Shown here: piece after piece, positions 10,136 to 63,411 of the stretch
Layout of the letters: each line of letters starts with the position of its first letter
Numbering within the stretch: position 1 is the first letter of the stretch
From: Asterias amurensis
Taxonomy: Eukaryota > Echinodermata > Asteroidea > Forcipulatida > Asteriidae
Assembly: GCF_032118995.1 (NCBI RefSeq)
Contig: NC_092666.1
Location: forward strand, 1,550,001-1,614,000
Direction: 5' to 3'
DNA: 64,000 nucleotides
Notes under the pieces: model-generated
Seen by the model: the letters and a program-made list of their open reading frames with translations, nothing else
The model's database searches: none
Told to the model about the DNA's origin: nothing
Made by a program: the position numbers and the translations under genes

Positions 10136-10137
10136 AT

Positions 10138-10357
10138 AATTTATTAGCATTATTGTGCTTTGTCTACCCGAGAAATTATAAGTACAGATATTAAATATAA
10201 ATATAAATTCGTGGGTCAAATCGGCCGAACATTTGCCTTTTGTAAATAATTTATTAGCATTATTGTGCTTTGTCTACCCGAGAAATTATAAGTACAGATA
10301 TTAAACATAAATATAAATTCGTGGGTCAAATCGGCCGAACATTTGCCTTTTGTAAAG
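10138..10357. repeat. Recent 110-bp tandem duplication
   Basis: The block beginning ATAATTTATTAGCATTATTG occurs twice in direct orientation with a period of 110 bp; by eye the copies differ by a single base (TTAAATATAAAT versus TTAAACATAAAT). Such low divergence indicates a young event. Confidence 0.9.
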
Positions 10358-10975: not shown

Positions 10976-16797
<5,822 letters not shown>

Positions 16798-31988: not shown

Positions 31989-32079
31989 ATGCCGAGATCC
32001 TTCCTAGTCCGGAACCCGTTAAGGAGTTCCACATCGGTGCCTAATATAGCCACCTGTGACCCGACATGGAATCTAAAAG
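31989..32079 (+). CDS. ovol: ovo gene 2 exon 1 (SNAG)
   Basis: ATG at 31989 in a purine -3 context, MPRSFLVRNPLRSSTSVPN, leaving in phase 1 at AAAAG|GTAAGA. The exact SNAG start fixes the initiation codon despite an open frame upstream. Confidence 0.88.
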
Positions 32080-35000
32080 GTAAGATCTTTCAGAACGAAA
32101 GGTTTATCGATGGAAAGTTAGTAGTATTTAAAATAGTCCTTGTCAGAAATGTACCTAGAACAGCCTACGCGGGGTGACCGTATCAATAGTCTTTCCAAGA
32201 GGGTCTTTGCAATGAGACCAACGGCCGTTGCCTTCTCCTAGAGATGATACATTCTTTCACAGGACTGGTTAGATCATACAAATAAACATACATACATACA
32301 AACATTCATACATACACAATGTTTTATATACCTCCATTTCACCAAGACCACAGCGGTTGTGATGAAACAGAGAAACAAATAAACGAAGAGACAAAATGCA
32401 AGTTGAACCAAATAGTAAAACAATCATTGTGGGAACAGGTGTGATTTCAGATGCTTCTTGAAAATATGAAGTGTCAGCAGAGCGCAGAGTTGGGGGGAGA
32501 CTATTCCAAAGTTTAGAAGCGGCAAAAAAGAAGAATTTGTTAGCAGCTGAAGCAAGAGATCTGTGGTTTATTTTGTGTTCGACAAGACGGGTAGTGTCGT
32601 TTGATGACCGCAAGCCGACTCTTCCCGGTGTGTACAAAACTAAGCATGATTTTAAATATGGGCCCATATCAAGAGATCGAGAGAGTACATCAGGAGCCTC
32701 TGCCGAGATACTGACAGAGTACTTGCTCATAGAGATAAACGGTGTATCACCTTTTAGTGAAGGGGTCTTTCGTGCCAGACGATTAGCGGAATCTGTTGGT
32801 AGAGTGTGGAGTGAAAGTGACTTGCCAAGAGACTTATGACGGAATATCTGCAATAGGAAACTAACAGGAGCCAAACATACTTGTTTGTCCAGCGAGACCA
32901 TCATTATTTTGAAGGTCTTCATCGACATCTGATTGCTTTACTTTATCCCAGCAGGTTTGAAGTCTCCCACCGATAATCAACACCTCGGCGCTTCTATAGG
33001 TGAGGAAGACTTAAGTGGGTCACTTGATCTCCATGTTGTGACCTTTGATGACCACCGATCCTGCAATAGCCTCATCGACGACGCCATTGAACCTCTCAAT
33101 CTTAGTTGCAGATCAAGAAATGACCTTCGACCCGATAGCGCCACCAACGTTAGCGAGGACGTTGAACCGTTGGATCTGCATGTTCCATCGGCATACCGTC
33201 AGAACGCATCAGGTCTCAATGAGCCGAAGCGGCAGGTGGGGTTGTCGACTGGCGTTCGACAGCAGCGCCATTCAAGCATGGAAAAGGTAACTTAGTCAAT
33301 AGAAAACAAAAAGATTTTGACAACAGATTGATTACACATGACGTCATTGACCGCCATCTTTGATGAATTGTGAACGCAGGAAAGGCTCCATCATTTGATA
33401 CAAATTTTACTAGTACTTTGAATTATAATTAATTCACAAACCTGCCTGCCACTATTAATGGCCGGATGTGTACATAATTTGTATCACAGGACGAAGAGGG
33501 CGCTCTAGAAGGAACCTTACACCTACGATCTATCGCCCCATTACACCAGATGCAGTCAGACTACCAGCCAGGAGTCCATAATGCCAATGAACCGTGAGTT
33601 ATTGTGACATTTTCTGAAAGTTGGAAACCAGCTTGCTATATTATAGACGTATTCTATTTGACTAATTTAAGTTCATTGTCATGACAGTGTTATTTAATCA
33701 AATGAATTAGTAACATAACAACTTGGTAACTTGCTGTGAGCTGTTTGAGAACATTGTGATAAACTCTTGGTGGCGCTTTATTGTGAATTCCGCAGTCCTT
33801 TCTTTGATTACCACAAGGCTCGTATTAGACCAGTCCCCTGTCTTTAACCATCGTTACACGTTTAAGACCATTGTTCTCACTTGGTGTCTCCCAAGATAAG
33901 CACAACTAACCTGTGAAAATTTGGACTAAATTTGATCATCGAATTTGCATAAGAATAACGAAAGAAAACAGCCTTCTTGCACTAATATAAGTGCTTTTAG
34001 ATGCATAATAAAAAGCTTCTATCAATTGTGACAAGAATGTACATTCTAATACTTATATTTGTTTTATCTTGACAAGTTTGGGATCGATTTAAGGGAAAAC
34101 ACACTCTTCGCTTTTGTACTTCAAACAGAGACTTTAACTGAAAACATTCGGATTTGTATTTCACTGTTAAAAGTGTTAGATCACAGTGTTCAGTATCAAA
34201 ACAAAACCTAGCAATATTGTAGCTCAGCTCATACCTATGATGTTTGGGTTTTGTTTTATCAACCAACAATATTCCCTTTAGATCCCGGCTTCCCAATGAA
34301 AGACACCTACCAATAGACTCCCTTCTTCGGCAGACCCTGGAGAGTGGGTACAATACTGGCAACTTCTTCAGCCAGCAGTTGATGGCCTGTAAACGTAGAT
34401 CTCCAAACTACAGCACGGACAGCTCAAAGCGACATTGCTGCTGTTTTTGCACTAAGCAGTTTACCGACAAGTTTGACCTCAAACGACACATTCGGACACA
34501 TACAGGTAAAACCAATGACCTCAAACGACACATTCGAACACACACAGGTAAAACCAATGACCTCAAACGACACATTCGAACACACACAGGTAAAACCAAT
34601 GACCTTGAACGACACATTCGAACACACACATGTAAAACCAATGACCTCAAACGACACATTCGAACACACACAGGTAACACCAAGTACAATGTAACCTCAA
34701 ACGACACATTTGGACACACATAGGTAAAACAAATGACCTTGAACGACACATTCGATCACACATCAGGTTTAACCTCTAACAACACATTCAAACACAAACG
34801 GTTAAATCAATGATGTCCAACGACACATTTGAACACACACAGGTAAAAGAATGACTTCAATAATTACAATAACTTGGATTAACTTTTACATCCCTAGTAT
34901 AGTTACATATTAGTATGATTTGTTTAATGTGCATGCGCACTAAAAATGGCCCGTTTGTTTCTTATTTCTAAGGTGTGCGACCGTTCAAGTGTGATCGGTG

Positions 35001-35343
35001 TTTCCGAGGATTCACTCAACGTTGCTCCTTGGAGATCCACCAGAAGAAGATACACAACATAGACCTCAAGTTTGCTTTCAAGGAGCGACGAGGTAAAATC
35101 TACGTCTGCGAACATTGCGGCCACTCCACCGACGAAATCAACACCCACTATGCACACACTGTCCAGGAGCACCGGGGGCCGTCTGGCTGTATTCCTGGTG
35201 CCCGTAGCCAGGTTGTTCCGGGGATGGTCAGTGGGCCAGTGGTAGGGGAAGAGATGCCTAAAGATTTTGCTTTTGGTCTTAAGCAAGAACCGAAACCGTA
35301 CCCGATGTGCCCAGAGCGGGTGTTCGTACCGGGAAAGAATTAA
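31989..35343 (+). CDS. ovol: Short Ovo/OVOL-type zinc-finger repressor, gene 2
   Basis: Five exons, 31989-32079, 32955-33286, 33490-33593, 34282-34505 and 34973-35343, join with fully matching phases (1, 0, 2, 1) to 373 residues. Residues 1-8, MPRSFLVR, are a SNAG motif, which in Snail, GFI and OVOL proteins recruits LSD1/CoREST-type corepressors. Exon 2 encodes EPLNLS and EPLDLH, like CtBP-binding PxDLS motifs. Fingers 2, 3 and 4 are present (CCFCTKQFTDKFDLKRHIRTH; CDRCFRGFTQRCSLEIH; CEHCGHST), but finger 1, always present in OVOL proteins I know, is replaced by unrelated sequence. The intron between fingers 2 and 3 has the same position and phase as in gene 1, showing common descent. A nuclear repressor role is inferred. 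Confidence 0.9.
32269..32928 (-). pseudogene. 3' end of a LINE reverse-transcriptase ORF
   Basis: The minus-strand frame ends with features typical of the C-terminus of CR1/L2-like LINE ORF2: YTPGRVGLRSSNDTTRL and then AASKLWNSLPPTLRSADTS. A +1 shift then gives the expected FKKHLKSHLF end. A tetranucleotide tail of ATGT type lies at the 3' end (32275-32315). The copy is 5'-truncated and lies antisense in intron 1 of ovo gene 2. Confidence 0.8.
32955..33286 (+). CDS. ovol: ovo gene 2 exon 2 (CtBP-motif candidates)
   Basis: Acceptor CCCAGCAG, entry phase 1, exit phase 0 at GAAAAG|GTAACT. PLNLS is at 33092-33106 and PLDLH at 33167-33181; a third SLDLHV lies nearer the exon start. No other known domain. 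Confidence 0.82.
33490..33593 (+). CDS. ovol: ovo gene 2 exon 3
   Basis: Acceptor GTATCACAG, donor CC|GTGAGT, 104 bp from phase 0 to phase 2. It encodes DEEGALEGTLHLRSIAP and then a short Gln-containing linker. The exon is defined by splice sites and phase rather than by a domain. Confidence 0.75.
33865..34020 (+). repeat. Truncated foldback family A copy
   Basis: TTCTCACTTGGTGTCTCCC, TTTGATCATCGAATTTGCAT and AATAACGAAAGAAAACAGCC are family A words; the right half is absent. It lies in intron 3 of ovo gene 2. Confidence 0.55.
34282..34505 (+). CDS. ovol: ovo gene 2 exon 4 (finger 2)
   Basis: Acceptor CCCTTTAG, entry phase 2, exit phase 1 at ACATACAG|GTAAAA. Residues SSKRHCCCFCTKQF and FDLKRHIRTHTG form finger 2. 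Where finger 1 should be, the sequence reads FFSQQLMACKRRSPN, without the Cys pair. The frame continues open past the donor because of the 42-bp array described next. Confidence 0.87.
34476..34830 (+). repeat. 42-bp tandem array duplicating the exon 4 end and splice donor
   Basis: Each unit holds the last coding bases of exon 4 (ACCTCAAACGACACATTCG and ACACACACAG) followed by the donor GTAAAACCAATG. Donor positions are 34506, 34548, 34590, 34632 (AG changed to AT) and 34674, at exact 42-bp spacing; degenerate units follow at 34724 and 34767. Since 42 is divisible by three, reading through adds TNDLKRHIRTHTGK per unit, and the frame stays open until a TAG at 34721. Confidence 0.93.
34973..35343 (+). 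CDS. ovol: ovo gene 2 exon 5 (fingers 3-4 and tail)
   Basis: Acceptor TTATTTCTAAG before 34973, entry phase 1 restoring the GVRPFKC linker. Finger 3 is at about 34988-35055 and finger 4 at about 35105-35165, joined by KERRGKIYVCEHCG as in other Ovo proteins. A Gly/Pro-rich tail ends in TAA at 35343. Confidence 0.9.
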
Positions 35344-46200: not shown

Positions 46201-47477
46201 AAGGATAGACATTCGAGCTAGGGTCGGCTGCTTTGTGGATGCTTTGATGCCACCAGGGAAATGCAAGACAGTAAAAGTCAGTTTCATGCTCCTTCCCTGC
46301 GCTCATACGCATGAAAAACAGTTTCACCATAATGACTGACAATAACAGAAACTACAAAAGAAAAAATTGTTTTGTTTCATCAGATTTATTAAAGCATGGG
46401 AAAATGCCGGTTGTATGCCGATGTCAGCATTTGGCATGCCTGTCCAGATACAAACAAATGAAAAAATAAGAGCAGGGGCAAATGGAAAAAAATTGATACA
46501 CGAACATAAAAGAAATCAACATATTTCTTTGCGAAACTTGATAAGAATAGCGTGATTGTTGTAACAACGCTATTTATACTCAAGTCATGCTTGGATGCAT
46601 TGGTTCGATAGTGGCGCGCTACGCTCAAGTGACAAGTGCAGCGGGTGCACTCACGTGATAGGTCCAGCGGGAGGCTGGGCGTCTATTGTTATACGTCAAT
46701 CATTTGATTAAAACCCAATTTTCATGTTGGACATTGACTGATCAAATTGGTTTGTGCAGCGAATGTCAACGTTGCTTTTCATTGAACATTCACATAGGAC
46801 ATTTACGAAGATCAAGGGTAGACATCCATAAACAAAGGTCGGTTGCTTTTGTGGATGCCTATGATGCCACCAGAAATGCATGACAATAAAAGTCAGTTTT
46901 ATGTTTGACATTGATTATTCAAATTGGTTTGTGCAGCGGATGTCAACGTTGCTTTTCATTGAACATTCATATAGGACATTTACAAAGATCAAGGGTAGAC
47001 ATCCATAAACAAGGGTCGGTTGCTTTTGTGGATGCCTATGATGCCACCAGGAATGCATGACAATAAAAGTCAGTTTTATATTGGTCATGGATCATTTCGA
47101 GGAGGTAAAAACTCCTCTTACAAATAATTACTCAAATGAGGCTTTCCTTTTTGTAAAGTTAAAATGAGTGAACATGTTGTGGCAGGATGTGGAAATCTCT
47201 ATGAGAGAAAAAACGTACCTGCTTTTTGGCATCGGGTTCTCTATCGTGTAACCCTTATCGTCGTGAAGTATATGCGAGCCTCGTTTTAGTTCCACCGCGG
47301 CACGCCCAAGCCGTCGGTAAAGAAGACATCTCTTGATGCCCGCCCCCATGAGTCCAAGCAGGGCCAGTCCAACACAGACCGGCATTATAATAAGAATCGA
47401 GGGAGATGTTTCGAGTTGTGCGAAGCTCGTGTACGTATGCACTTTCTGTGTTGTTGCCAACTGACTTGCTGATTTCG
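42881..47477 (-). CDS. 3' part of a single-pass membrane protein gene
   Basis: Two exons, 47477-47219 and 43211-42881, join in phase 2 to about 196 residues. Exon A begins extracellular-looking and Thr/Ser-rich (KSASQLATTQKVHTYTS), then has a hydrophobic segment of about 22 residues (SILIIMPVCVGLALLGLMGA) followed by a basic stop-transfer KRCLLYRR. Exon B is a cytoplasmic tail with RRTASERMAPSRKNS, likely phosphorylation sites, and a Cys cluster CKCYCHCPLCGQ. The stop is at 42881-42883. The family is not recognised. The ectodomain must come from exons further right; one candidate is 48500-48318. The ATG at about 47496 lies before the acceptor and is not a credible start. Confidence 0.65.
43978..44072 (-). 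repeat. tRNA-derived SINE fragment
   Basis: Shares GTGTTAGCACTGTATA, TCAGTACTTTCC and TACTCGG.TGGGATTCG with the better copy at 52700-52870. Its B box is damaged. Confidence 0.6.
44224..44310 (+). pseudogene. Short LINE reverse-transcriptase fragment
   Basis: Twenty-eight codons read VLQGSVIGPLFLFVCV and then NITDADGQM and stop. This is the conserved (P)QGSVLGPLLF region of non-LTR reverse transcriptases with the following NDI/DA.GQM; the catalytic YADD part is absent. Confidence 0.65.
44311..44834. other. No gene seen
   Basis: CATGTGACGCGCTCTAAACC at about 44321 recurs at about 51418, so part is an unclassified dispersed repeat. Confidence 0.4.
44835..45185 (-). repeat. Dispersed repeat, family H, inverted copy
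   Basis: The minus strand ends in GTTGAAACGTCAGGCCATTA, as does the plus-strand copy at 30640-30985, and the upstream pyrimidine-rich body aligns block by block. Confidence 0.75.
45246..45670 (+). repeat. Family G-type retroelement end with residual ORF
   Basis: The right part has ACGATCAGAGCATACTGATC, GAAACGTCGAGTTGAAACC and the typical end TGTTACCGCAAACCTCT. The 108-codon frame before it (45246-45572) ends just at this motif; it may be the decayed C-terminus of the element's ORF, but I see no assignable motif. Confidence 0.5.
45671..46199. other. No gene seen
   Basis: A 30-bp direct duplication, GAATAAGGAACTCGGC, occurs near 46039 and 46069. Nothing coding. Confidence 0.4.
46200..47085. 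repeat. 177-bp tandem duplication plus older partial copy
   Basis: GACAATAAAAGTCAGTTTTA occurs near 46883 and 47060 (period 177) at the ends of two units containing GTGGATGCCTATGATGCCAC. A more diverged third copy lies at about 46200-46290. All lie just past the membrane-protein exon on its 3' side, in the intron. Confidence 0.8.
47219..47477 (-). CDS. Membrane protein gene, transmembrane exon
   Basis: Acceptor CCCTTTCACAG, donor AGCAG|GTACGT on the minus strand; 259 bp entering in phase 1 and leaving in phase 2. Good splice sites at both ends and a clear hydrophobic segment with flanking basic residues support it. Confidence 0.68.
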
Positions 47478-57773: not shown

Positions 57774-60700
57774 CACAGAGCAAATGAGTGTCACACAGAG
57801 TATGCAACACTAGCCGTGCCTTGAGAGTGTCAACAGAGTATGCAACTCCCCAGGGAGCTGAGATGGTAAGGAATGATTTAAGGGCCAGTGACCAGGGACA
57901 ATAATGTCGGAAGCGCTTTGAGACACCCCGTGAAGACAGCTATATAAAAACCGTGTATTATTATTATTATTAGCCGTGCCTTATGAGTGTCCACAGAGTA
58001 TGCAACACTAGCCGTGCCTTATGAGTGTCCACAGAGTATGCAACACTAGCCGTGCCTTATGAGTGTCCACAGAGTATGCAACACTAGCCGTGCCTTATGA
58101 GTGTCCACAGAGTATGCAACACTAGCCGTGCCCTATGAGTGTCCACAGAGTGTGCAACACTAGCCGTGCCTTATGAGTATCCACAGAGTGTGCAACACTA
58201 ACCGTGTCTAATGAGTGTCCATAGAGTATGCAACACTAGCCGTGCCTTATGAGTGTCCACAGAGTGTGCAACACTAGCCGTGCCTTATGAGTGTCCACAG
58301 AGTGTGCAACACTAGCCGTGTCTTATGAGTGTCCACAGAGTATGCAACACTAGCCGTTCCGTATGAGTGTCCACAGAGTATGCAAAATTAGCCGTGCCGT
58401 ATGAGTGTCCACAGAGTGTGCAACACTAGCCGTGTCTTATGAGTGTCCACAGAGTATGCAACACTAGCCGTGCCTTATGAGTGTCCACAGAGTATGCAGC
58501 ACCAGCCGTGCCTTATGAGTGTCCACAGAGTATGCAACACTAGCCGTGCCTTATGAGTGTCCACAGAGTATGCAACACTAGCCGTGCCTTATGAGTGTCC
58601 ACAGAGTGTGCAACATTAGCCGTGCCTTATGAGTATCCACAGAGTGTGCAACACTAACCGTGTCTTATGAGTGTCCATAGAGTATGCAACACTAGCCGTG
58701 CCTTATGAGTGTCCACAGAGTGTGCAACACTAGCCGTGCCTTATGAGTGTCCACAGAGCGTGCAACACTAGCCGTGTCTTATGAGTGTCCACAGAGTATG
58801 CAACACTAGCCGTTCCGTTTGAGTGTCCACAGAGTATGCAACATTAGCCGTGCCGTATGAGTGTCCACAGAGTGTGCAACACTAGCCGTGTCTTATGAGT
58901 GTCCACAGAGTATGCAACACTAGCCGTGCCTTATGAGTGTCCACAGAGTATGCAGCACCAGCCGTACCTTATGAGTGTCCACAGAGTATGCAGCACCAGC
59001 CGTGCCTTATGAGTTTCCACAGAGTATGCAACACTAGCCGTACCTTATGAGTGTCCACAGAGTATGCAGCACCAGCCGTGCCTTATGAGTTTTCACAGAG
59101 TATGCAACACTAGCCGTGCCTTATGAGTGTCCACAGAGTATGCAACACTAGCCGTGCCTTATGAGTGTCCACAGAGTATGCAACACTAGCCGTGCCTTAT
59201 GAGTGTCCACAGAGTATGCAACACTAGCCGTCCCTTATGAGTGTCCACAGAGTGTGCAACACTAGCCGTGCCTTATGAGTATCCACAGAGTGTGCAACAC
59301 TAACCGTGTCTAATGAGTGTCCATAGAGTATGCAACACTAGCCGTGCCTTATGAGTGTCCACAGAGTGTGCAACACTAGCCGTGCCTTATGAGTGTCCAC
59401 AGAGTGTGCAACACTAGCCGTGTCTTATGAGTGTCCACAGAGTATGCAACACTAGCCGTTCCGTATGAGTGTCCACAGAGTATGCAACATTAGCCGTGCC
59501 GTATGAGTGTCCACAGAGTGTGCAACACTAGCCGTGTCTTATGAGTGTCCACAGAGTATGCAACACTAGCCGTGCCTTATGAGTGTCCACAGAGTATGCA
59601 GCACCAGCCGTGCCTTATGAGTGTCCACAGAGTATGCAACACTAGCCGTGCCTTATGAGTGTCCATAGAGTATGCAACACTAGCCGTGCCTTATGAGTGT
59701 CCACAGAGTGTGCAACACTAGCCGTGCCTTATGAGTATCCACAGAGTGTGCAACACTAACCGTGTCTTATGAGTGTCCATAGAGTATGCAACACTAGCCG
59801 TGCCTTATGAGTGTCCACAGAGTGTGCAACACTAGCCGTGCCTTATGAGTGTCCATAGAGCGTGCAACACTAGCCGTGTCTTATGAGTGTCCACAGAGTA
59901 TGCAGCACCAGCCGTGCCTTATGAGTTTCCACAGAGTATGCAACACTAGCCGTGCCTCATGAGTGTCCACAGAGTATGCAACACTAGCCGTGCCTTATGA
60001 GTGTCCACAGAGTGTGCAACACTAGCCGTGCCTTATGAGTATCCACAGAGTGTGCAACACTAACCGTGTCTTATGAGTGTCCATAGAGTATGCAACACTA
60101 GCCGTGCCTTATGAGTGTCCACAGAGTGTGCAACACTAGCCGTGCCTTATGAGTGTCCACAGAGCGTGCAACACTAGCCGTGTCTTATGAGTGTCCACAG
60201 AGTATGCAACACTAGCCGTTCCGTTTGAGTGTCCACAGAGTATGCAACATTAGCCGTGCCGTATGAGTGTCCACAGAGTGTGCAACACTAGCCGTGTCTT
60301 ATGAGTGTCCACAGAGTATGCAGCACCAGCCGTACCTTATGAGTGTCCACAGAGTATGCAGCACCAGCCGTGCCTTATGAGTTTCCACAGAGTATGCAAC
60401 ACTAGCCGTACCTTATGAGTGTCCACAGAGTATGCAGCACCAGCCGTGCCTTATGAGTTTTCACAGAGTATGCAACACTAGCCGTGCCTTATGAGTGTCC
60501 ACAGAGTATGCAACACTAGCCGTGCCTTATGAGTGTCCACAGAGTATGCAACACTAGCCGTGCCTTATGAGTGTCCACAGAGTATGCAACACTAGCCGTC
60601 CCTTATGAGTGTCCACAGAGTGTGCAACACTAGCCGTGCCTTATGAGTATCCACAGAGTGTGCAACACTAACCGTGTCTAATGAGTGTCCATAGAGTATG

Positions 60701-62160
60701 CAACACTAGCCGTGCCTTATGAGTGTCCACAGAGTGTGCAACACTAGCCGTGCCTTATGAGTGTCCACAGAGTATGCAGCACCAGCCGTACCTTATGAGT
60801 GTCCACAGAGTATGCAGCACCAGCCGTGCCTTATGAGTTTCCACAGAGTATGCAACACTAGCCGTACCTTATGAGTGTCCACAGAGTATGCAGCACCAGC
60901 CGTGCCTTATGAGTTTTCACAGAGTATGCAACCCTAGCCGTGCCTTATGAGTGTCCACAGAGTATGCAACACTAGCCGTGCCTTATGAGTGTCCACAGAG
61001 TATGCAACACTAGCCGTGCCTTATGAGTGTCCACAGAGTATGCAACACTAGCCGTCCCTTATGAGTGTCCACAGAGTGTGCAACACTAGCCGTGCCTTAT
61101 GAGTATCCACAGAGTGTGCAACACTAACCGTGTCTAATGAGTGTCCATAGAGTATGCAACACTAGCCGTGCCTTATGAGTGTCCACAGAGTGTGCAACAC
61201 TAGCCGTGCCTTATGAGTGTCCACAGAGTGTGCAACACTAGCCGTGTCTTATGAGTGTCCACAGAGTATGCAACACTAGCCGTTCCGTATGAGTGTCCAC
61301 AGAGTATGCAACATTAGCCGTGCCGTATGAGTGTCCACAGAGTGTGCAACACTAGCCGTGTCTTATGAGTGTCCACAGAGTATGCAACACTAGCCGTGCC
61401 TTATGAGTGTCCACAGAGTATGCAGCACCAGCCGTGCCTTATGAGTGTCCACAGAGTATGCAACACTAGCCGTGCCTTATGAGTGTCCACAGAGTATGCA
61501 ACACTAGCCGTGCCTTATGAGTGTCCACAGAGTGTGCAACACTAGCCGTGCCTTATGAGTATCCACAGAGTGTGCAACACTAACCGTGTCTTATGAGTGT
61601 CCATAGAGTATGCAACACTAGCCGTGCCTTATGAGTGTCCACAGAGTGTGCAACACTAGCCGTGCCTTATGAGTGTCCACAGAGCGTGCAACACTAGCCG
61701 TGTCTTATGAGTGTCCACAGAGTATGCAACACTAGCCGTTCCGTTTGAGTGTCCACAGAGTATGCAACATTAGCCGTGCCGTATGAGTGTCCACAGAGTG
61801 TGCAACACTAGCCGTGTCTTATGAGTGTCCACAGAGTATGCAACACTAGCCGTGCCTTATGAGTGTCCACAGAGTATGCAGCACCAGCCGTACCTTATGA
61901 GTGTCCACAGAGTATGCAGCACCAGCCGTGCCTTATGAGTTTCCACAGAGTATGCAACACTAGCCGTACCTTATGAGTGTCCACAGAGTATGCAGCACCA
62001 GCCGTGCCTTATGAGTTTCCACAGAGTATGCAACACTAGCCGTGCCTTATGAGTGTCCACAGAGTATGCAACACTAGCCGTGCCTTATGAGTGTCCACAG
62101 AGTATGCAACAGTAGCCGTCCCTTATGAGTGTCCACAAAGTGTGCAACACTAGCCGTGCC
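57774..62160 (+). repeat. 38-bp minisatellite with higher-order structure
   Basis: The unit is TAGCCGTGCCTTATGAGTGT followed by CCACAGAGTATGCAACAC. Counting from 57971 to 62151 gives 4180 bp, exactly 110 units, so the array has no net indel. Two degenerate units precede it (57774-57846), cut off by an inserted SINE tail. Variant units (TAACCGTGTC, GTTCCGTATG, CAGCACCAGCC, GAGTATCCAC) recur in a fixed order. The TAACCGTGTC variant is at 58199, 58655, 59301, 59757, 60061, 60669, 61125 and 61581, which is 12, 17, 12, 8, 16, 12 and 12 units apart: a higher-order block of about 456 bp. There is no long open frame. Confidence 0.97.
57847..57970 (+). repeat. SINE 3' tail inserted at the array edge
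   Basis: CAGGGAGCTGAGATGGTAAG, GAATGATTTAAGGGCCAGTG and AAGCGCTTTGAGAC match the minus strand of 22996-23140, ending in an ATT microsatellite. The head is missing (5' truncation). Confidence 0.85.
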
Positions 62161-63411
62161 TTCGCTATTTTATGGAGACCCAGAACCAAACAAAAGGGAA
62201 AAACAAAAGGTCTCCATAGGAATTCTAAGAAGCATAGTGATCCACCACAAAGATGTAAAAGTATACCTTACACAACAATGCAAATGTATTCAGCGCTGTT
62301 TCCATCAAGACCATAAAGAGCACTATAGAGAAAGCAATTAACATGGACAAACGTGAGTCTTTAGAACTTTACGAAATGCCGACAGTAACAGATTCCCTGC
62401 GAAGGAAAATTGTTTGAAATCATTGGCCCGGCTACACTGAAGGCGTTTTTACCTAGAATTCTGTTTTGGGAATATTCAAGCGAGTGATGTCAAGTGTGGA
62501 CCGAATGAAAAGTGGAATTGTATTAAGGAGTAGTTTTGTTCAAGCATTTAAAAACAATAAGGGCAACTTCAAATGGATTCGTTCTCTAATCGGTAGCCAA
62601 TGAAGGACAAGGGAAATACTCTGCTTATCTGCTTTTAGTATTAGGTCGAAATGTCAGGCCAAAATCAAGTCAATAATTAATTCCAGCCTTGTCATATTTC
62701 TTCCGTCTCATTTTTAACACTGTATCTTTAACACCCCAGAGATCAAACCAATTGTTAATACGTGACGTGGTCTTTTATATCAGTCTCGTACGCCTGGTTA
62801 AGGACAATTTAAGAAATTACTTCTAAAAATAGGACATGGCCTTGTGTCCCGTGGCGTAATTTCATTGTTAGGAAGACAATGTAACATCAACAACGGGTCA
62901 AGTAACACATTGTCACCCTTCAAATGTCAGTAAACGAAAACATCGCAGCCGATTTTGCGAAACGGTGAGGTGTTTAACGAGTCACATACCACATAAAATA
63001 GAAATATTTCAAAATTATTTATTATTATTTATTATTTCTCATGCGCATTCAAATTACAAGTGAAGTAGTTTGACACGGGGGACAGGGTTTAGTGTGCACA
63101 CTTTACTACAGTCTACGATGCACAAACCTCAACATATGACGTCACACTTAGCGAATTCGCAGTTTAATCCGACGTACACGTGTATACATTTATAGGGCTC
63201 TTCCTCTGTATTTTTTTCTTAAAGCAATTAATAAACGGTTAGCAAAATCAGTGAAAATACCCCATGTTTTTTTTTTAATTTAGAGTGCAGAAACGAGATT
63301 GGTTTATCTATTATCAAATCTTATCTTCTTTAGTGTCAGATCGTCGTCCCAATGTATGTCTAGGTCTAAAAACGTTAATTAACCGAGTTATTATTTTTAT
63401 TTTGTAAGTAC
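62161..63411. other. No gene seen
   Basis: The minisatellite ends abruptly into ordinary DNA. A TTATTTATTATTATTTATTA tract lies near 63015. No exon is recognised. Confidence 0.4.

Follow-up and report, generated by a model that had tools for sequence, protein, structure and literature searches.

Alternative splice donors that alter the stretch between two C2H2 zinc fingers are best described for human WT1, where the choice between two donors at intron 9 decides whether three residues are present between fingers 3 and 4, giving the +KTS and -KTS forms (PMC8484119). A different kind of precedent comes from the fission yeast genes SPOG_01682 and SOCG_00815, in which 24-bp units containing AGGT are repeated and introns extend across the copies (as cited in PMC4974935). 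The OVO/OVOL family of transcription factors is described as carrying a tetrad of C2H2 fingers (PMC3380836). Here we analyse an ovo-type gene of the northern Pacific sea star Asterias amurensis, ovo gene 2, in which a 42-bp minisatellite repeats the end of a zinc finger together with its splice donor. The locus resembles WT1 in that active donors would change what lies between two C2H2 fingers. However, the two donors of WT1 make a difference of three residues that is documented in RNA and linked to disease, whereas the donors of ovo gene 2, up to five of them in phase and spaced by 42 nt, were born from a minisatellite and are known from sequence alone. It resembles the fission yeast arrays, which are interpreted under the Rogers model, in that a short coding unit with AGGT has been multiplied, but in fission yeast the result is a new intron inside an exon, whereas in ovo gene 2 the multiplied donor belongs to an existing intron that relatives also have. 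The +/-KTS donors of WT1 are the nearest functional parallel and the fission yeast AGGT arrays the nearest structural one. Among the literature matches listed (titles and starts of abstracts, from a search covering few subscription journals), we recognised no work that dealt with this locus or with a minisatellite that multiplies a donor within a finger, nor any case in which a minisatellite, four intact in-phase donors and a finger linker come together.

The window that we analysed, i.e. the whole stretch of DNA under study, is 64 kb of contig NC_092666.1 (1,550,001-1,614,000), and a finger pattern scan located two ovo-type genes in it, both on the + strand. The five coding exons of ovo gene 2 (Table 1), whose open frame ends at 35343, give a 373-residue translation that is identical letter for letter to its best database match, the deposited Asterias amurensis protein P0001 (NCBI/UniRef; 373 aa, named 'uncharacterized protein isoform X2'). 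P0001 corresponds exactly to a splice from 34505 to 34973, and at this acceptor the sequence reads G/GT GTG CGA, giving G-V-R across the junction. A reverse-strand ORF of 222 aa (32269-32937) overlaps the end of intron 1; it had no match in Pfam and presumably resembles the tail of a LINE reverse transcriptase.

Table 1. Features of ovo gene 2, of its repeat array and of the neighbouring ovo gene 1, in window coordinates.
Feature	Position	Strand	Detail
ovo gene 1 fingers	14187-14333 and 16387-16569	+	finger pattern scan
ovo gene 2 coding exon 1	31989..32079	+	start codon, MPRSFLVRNP...; in-silico model, translation as in deposited P0001
ovo gene 2 coding exon 2	32955..33286	+	in-silico model, translation as in P0001
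ovo gene 2 coding exon 3	33490..33593	+	in-silico model, translation as in P0001
ovo gene 2 coding exon 4	34282..34505	+	ends in finger 2 (C2H2 at 34439-34501)
42-bp minisatellite, about nine copies	34474..34860	+	TRF; begins inside finger 2, extends into intron 4
Donor 1, CAG/GTAAAA (cut after CAG)	34506..34507	+	junction of deposited protein; presumed ancestral
Donor 2, CAG/GTAAAA	34548..34549	+	would add 14 aa
Donor 3, CAG/GTAAAA	34590..34591	+	would add 28 aa
Donor 4, weakened, CAT/GTAAAA	34632..34633	+	would add 42 aa
Donor 5, CAG/GTAACA	34674..34675	+	would add 56 aa
First in-frame stop, TAG	34721..34723	+	reached when the intron is read through
Donor-like site 6, TAG/GTAAAA	34724..34725	+	directly after the stop; product would be without fingers 3 and 4
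Donor-like site 7, CAG/GTAAAA	34843..34844	+	last copy, about 120 nt past the stop; truncated product or decayed mRNA
ovo gene 2 coding exon 5	34973..35343	+	finger 3 (34990-35055) and finger 4 (35107-35172)

The motifs FDLKRH..RTHTGVRPFKC and FTQRCSLE, which we take to mark OVO/OVOL zinc fingers, are both present in ovo gene 2 and both visible in its database matches. The gene shares with the OVO/OVOL family fingers 2-4, the linker TGVRPFK and the position of the intron after THTG, and differs from it in the array after the donor and in its finger number: instead of the family's tetrad, the finger pattern is matched at fingers 2-4 only, and the scan found no finger 1 within 31989-35343. No finger 1 was seen by eye in a deposited 181-aa relative from Patiria. 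We call ovo gene 2 a divergent three-finger ovo-type gene rather than a standard family member, and the absence of finger 1 from both it and the Patiria relative suggests that sea stars have an older branch of three-finger ovo genes. Ovo gene 1, to which ovo gene 2 is identical in 49 of 89 aligned columns, has an intron (14338-16369, placed by eye) at the same site as intron 4 of ovo gene 2; its donor at 14338 follows RTHTG, and its acceptor leads into GVRP in the exon that starts at 16370. TRF reported no such repeat at the intron site of ovo gene 1. The same intron carries, at 14407-15566, an element with 226-nt inverted repeats (96% complementary), within which an ORF (14819-15055) is presumably a Tc1-like helix-turn-helix fragment. 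We considered whether the locus might be linked to the published sex-determining region and discarded the idea: the region is placed on chromosome 10 at 7-12 Mb (PMC11757944), and the window, which lies between 1.55 and 1.61 Mb from an end of a 15.77-Mb contig, falls outside 7-12 Mb in either orientation.

A sequence-only reading of the window had proposed that the end of finger 2 is repeated in donor-bearing 42-bp units, and TRF confirmed this, reporting an array at a score far beyond chance (period 42, 9.2 copies, 79% matches, 9% indels, score 448). The units stand head to tail and are within the range of about 10-100 bp that defines a minisatellite. The array is 387 bp long, and its end had been placed at 34830 in that reading, i.e. 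30 bp short of the end given by TRF. In the repeat unit, the final 32 coding bases of exon 4 are followed by the first 10 bases of the intron, and because the unit spans the exon end and the intron start both the donor and its phase were copied along with it. Copies 2 and 3 are identical. Copy 1 differs from them at two positions (CGG/CGA and CAT/CAC), both silent by eye; copy 4 has three differences from them, and copy 5 has one within the 42-bp unit and is followed by extra bases. Copies 1-4 are near-identical (88-100%), and copies 6-9, which were cut by hand, are diverged, of unequal length and 63-86% identical to the other copies. The motif CTTGAA is common to copies 4 and 7 and CATTTG to copies 6 and 9 (by eye), which suggests that the array grew by duplications of more than one unit at once; TRF also gave a second period of 77 bp over 34692-34844. 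When the array was used to search the genome, with simple repeats and very common words left out, the one match was the array itself. Other tandem repeats reported by TRF in the window are a 38-bp satellite array (57971-62162, about 110 copies, 92% matches), a 177-bp unit present about twice (46720-47088, 93% matches) and a 110-bp unit present twice (10136-10356, 99% matches).

We scanned 34440-34969 for GTs with at least 6 of 9 matches to CAGGTAAGT, a count of consensus matches rather than a splice-score model, and seven GTs reached this threshold. The sites at 34506, 34548, 34590 and 34843 read CAGGTAAAA (7 matches), so that donors 1-3 have the same nonamer, 34674 reads CAGGTAACA (7 matches), and 34632 and 34724 read CATGTAAAA and TAGGTAAAA (6 matches each). 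As the sequence-only reading had it, ACAG/GTAA is kept in a single phase at 34506, 34548, 34590 and 34674, the donor at 34632 is mutated (to ACAT/GTAA), and the frame is open as far as the TAG at 34721-34723. The loss of the donor in copy 4 is accompanied by loss of the helix lysine (LKRH to LERH). The scan also extended the earlier account by two donor-like sites, 34724 and 34843, which lie past the stop and are in other phases than the five sites from 34506 to 34674. Joining the five in-phase donors in silico to the acceptor at 34973 gave products of 373, 387, 401, 415 and 429 aa, in agreement with the proposal that each later donor would add a 14-residue step. Judged by consensus matches, the locus therefore has at least two in-phase donors of similar strength, as in the KTS type of WT1.

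The added segments are finger ends. In the read-through ladder (146 residues) Pfam recognised one complete zf-C2H2 finger, at residues 51-73, and four stretches above cut-off for each of zf-H2C2_2 and zf-H2C2_5, which match the array copies because their profiles include finger ends; an added segment has no cysteine pair and hence is not a finger. We did not rely on a single-sequence structure prediction of the read-through ladder, which gave one long helix (mean pLDDT 76.7, pTM 0.46) and in which even the real finger 2 was not folded as a finger.

The spacing of fingers 2 and 3 was compared among 240 proteins (the best 120 of 2931 matches and the best 120 of 390), of which 25 were off-pattern and were left out. 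The linker is 7 residues long in 200 of the 215 scorable proteins, P0001 included; the other 15 have linkers of 22-53 residues that start with TG and end with G(V/I)(R/K)P(Y/F)K, and these look like introns at the same site that have been translated. The plain TGVRPFK linker is found in P0121 from Patiria miniata and P0122 from Acanthaster planci; counting gapped tails, ovo gene 2 is identical to the Patiria miniata relative in 77 of 134 aligned columns and to the Acanthaster planci relative in 79 of 127. The spacing is thus strongly conserved, which makes it less likely that 14-56 residues are often inserted to functional effect, but leaves room for use at a low level. No insert-bearing protein was present among the best 120 of 2931 matches or the best 120 of 390, and none of the 240 listed proteins had two tandem finger ends (pattern RHxRTHT twice). 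The second of these sets came from a short query across the junction, intended to pick up fragments derived from transcripts; it included no entry named Asterias in its best 120 of 390, many of the entries being without a name. When residues 1-245 of P0001 were used as the query, P0001 was the sole match among 343 candidates, with no close Asterias orthologue among them. Residues 1-245 would also be present in any ladder isoform built on the same first exons, so that such an isoform could hide only inside the 90% cluster of P0001, which has 3 member sequences. The name 'isoform X2' implies at least one further annotated isoform, and P0001 itself may rest on prediction rather than on reads.

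We also asked whether survival of the later donors points to selection. Relative to their own consensus, copies 2-5 carry 4 substitutions in total, a count that omits the extra bases following copy 5, and 1 of these falls in the 7-nt donor core, where 0.67 would be expected. Donor survival in these young copies is therefore in no excess over expectation, and selection on the later donors is unsupported: the copies are so little changed overall that survival of their donors needs no selection, and only their youth can be deduced from it.

The reading that we prefer, with a probability of roughly 0.68, is that the minisatellite arose from slippage at the exon-intron border, and that the first donor is the main one, the later donors being minor and without a dedicated role. 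The minisatellite is most likely young and straddles the border of exon 4 and intron 4. The sites of the slippage behind the first duplication would be TGACCTCAA in the exon (34474) and its near-match TGACTTCAA in the intron (34852), which are identical at 8 of 9 positions, this being the sole match of at least 7 in 121 intron positions from 34844; the array would then have grown through exchanges of more than one unit. The donor at 34506 is taken to be ancestral because ovo gene 1 has a donor at the same residue and phase without the repeat, and it would give the main protein with the standard 7-residue linker between fingers 2 and 3. The later donors, of equal quality by sequence, would probably be used at a low level to give minor in-frame forms (+14, +28 and +56 aa) or truncated ones. 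An origin by intron gain was rejected: the AGGT model has a new intron that is absent from relatives, whereas this intron site is common to ovo gene 1, and possibly also to the 15 of 215 proteins mentioned above if their long linkers are translated introns.

That P0001 is the first-donor product speaks for a main role of the first donor. Against it, the shared nonamer of donors 1-3 leaves the first without an advantage in sequence, and when identical donors stand in tandem in mammalian tests, the one closest to the 3' splice site is often preferred. The motif ACACACA is present in copies 2-5 and absent from copy 1; CA-rich runs are sites for hnRNP L, and we would guess that hnRNP L bound there might weaken the later copies. 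In DOK7, binding of SRSF1 immediately upstream moves splicing between neighbouring donors towards the intron-proximal one (PMC5585400), and hnRNP A1 favours the intron-distal donor (as cited in PMC5585400). Given these shifts and the mammalian preference for intron-proximal sites, use of the later donors is quite possible.

The sequence-only reading went further, in proposing that the locus could make a ladder of proteins. The anatomy of this proposal stands, i.e. the in-phase copied donors, the open frame and the 14-residue steps. Against a functional ladder, the deposited protein uses 34505 to 34973, the two sets of best matches contain no insert, the 7-residue spacing prevails in them, and donor survival in the young copies shows no excess. 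We treat the ladder as a possibility and not as a finding. If it were used, donors 1, 2, 3 and 5 would compete, fingers 2 and 3 would be separated by 0, 1, 2 or 4 additional TNDLKRHIRTHTGK-type segments, the spacing of the DNA sites would be altered, and repeat number would vary between animals. Equally good donors in one phase with an open frame are what this explanation would call for, as is the near-identity of copies 1-4 with silent differences between copy 1 and copies 2-3, and WT1 is a precedent for two donors that alter a finger linker (PMC8484119). However, no insert-bearing protein is among the matches listed, the scored proteins show almost no variation in spacing, copy 4 has lost both its donor and its helix lysine, copies 6-9 have decayed, and the inserted segment, having no cysteine pair, would supply no finger. 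We consider a ladder in use to be unlikely. Rated lower again, as a speculation, is the idea that donor choice in a DNA-binding domain is tuned by a mutable minisatellite, such that animals with different repeat numbers would make different spacer ladders and bind different DNA sites.

It is also conceivable, at still longer odds, that the extra donors, and 34724 and 34843 in particular, act as decoys that divert splicing into mRNAs that are degraded or lack fingers 3 and 4, in which case the output of the gene would fall with repeat number. Two donor-like sites past the in-frame TAG would suit such a role, particularly 34843, which is a full CAG/GTAAAA and the nearest to the 3' splice site. 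However, the donor at 34724 would put the stop directly at the junction, where by the mammalian 50-nt rule it would often escape decay, and this counts against a decoy. Least credible of all is an assembly artefact; tandem arrays can in principle be mis-assembled, but this one is just 387 bp long and most of its copies are distinct (copies 2 and 3 being identical), and the assembly was made from PacBio HiFi reads with a mean length of 12.5 kb at 22.68x (PMC10625585).

The locus amounts to a natural experiment on how the cell chooses among identical, evenly spaced donors, with an exact readout in the protein. Should the later donors be in use, the distance between DNA-binding fingers would be directly altered by a repeat of a type that mutates quickly; if not, the locus would show a strict preference for the first donor that does not depend on any difference in the donor nonamer.
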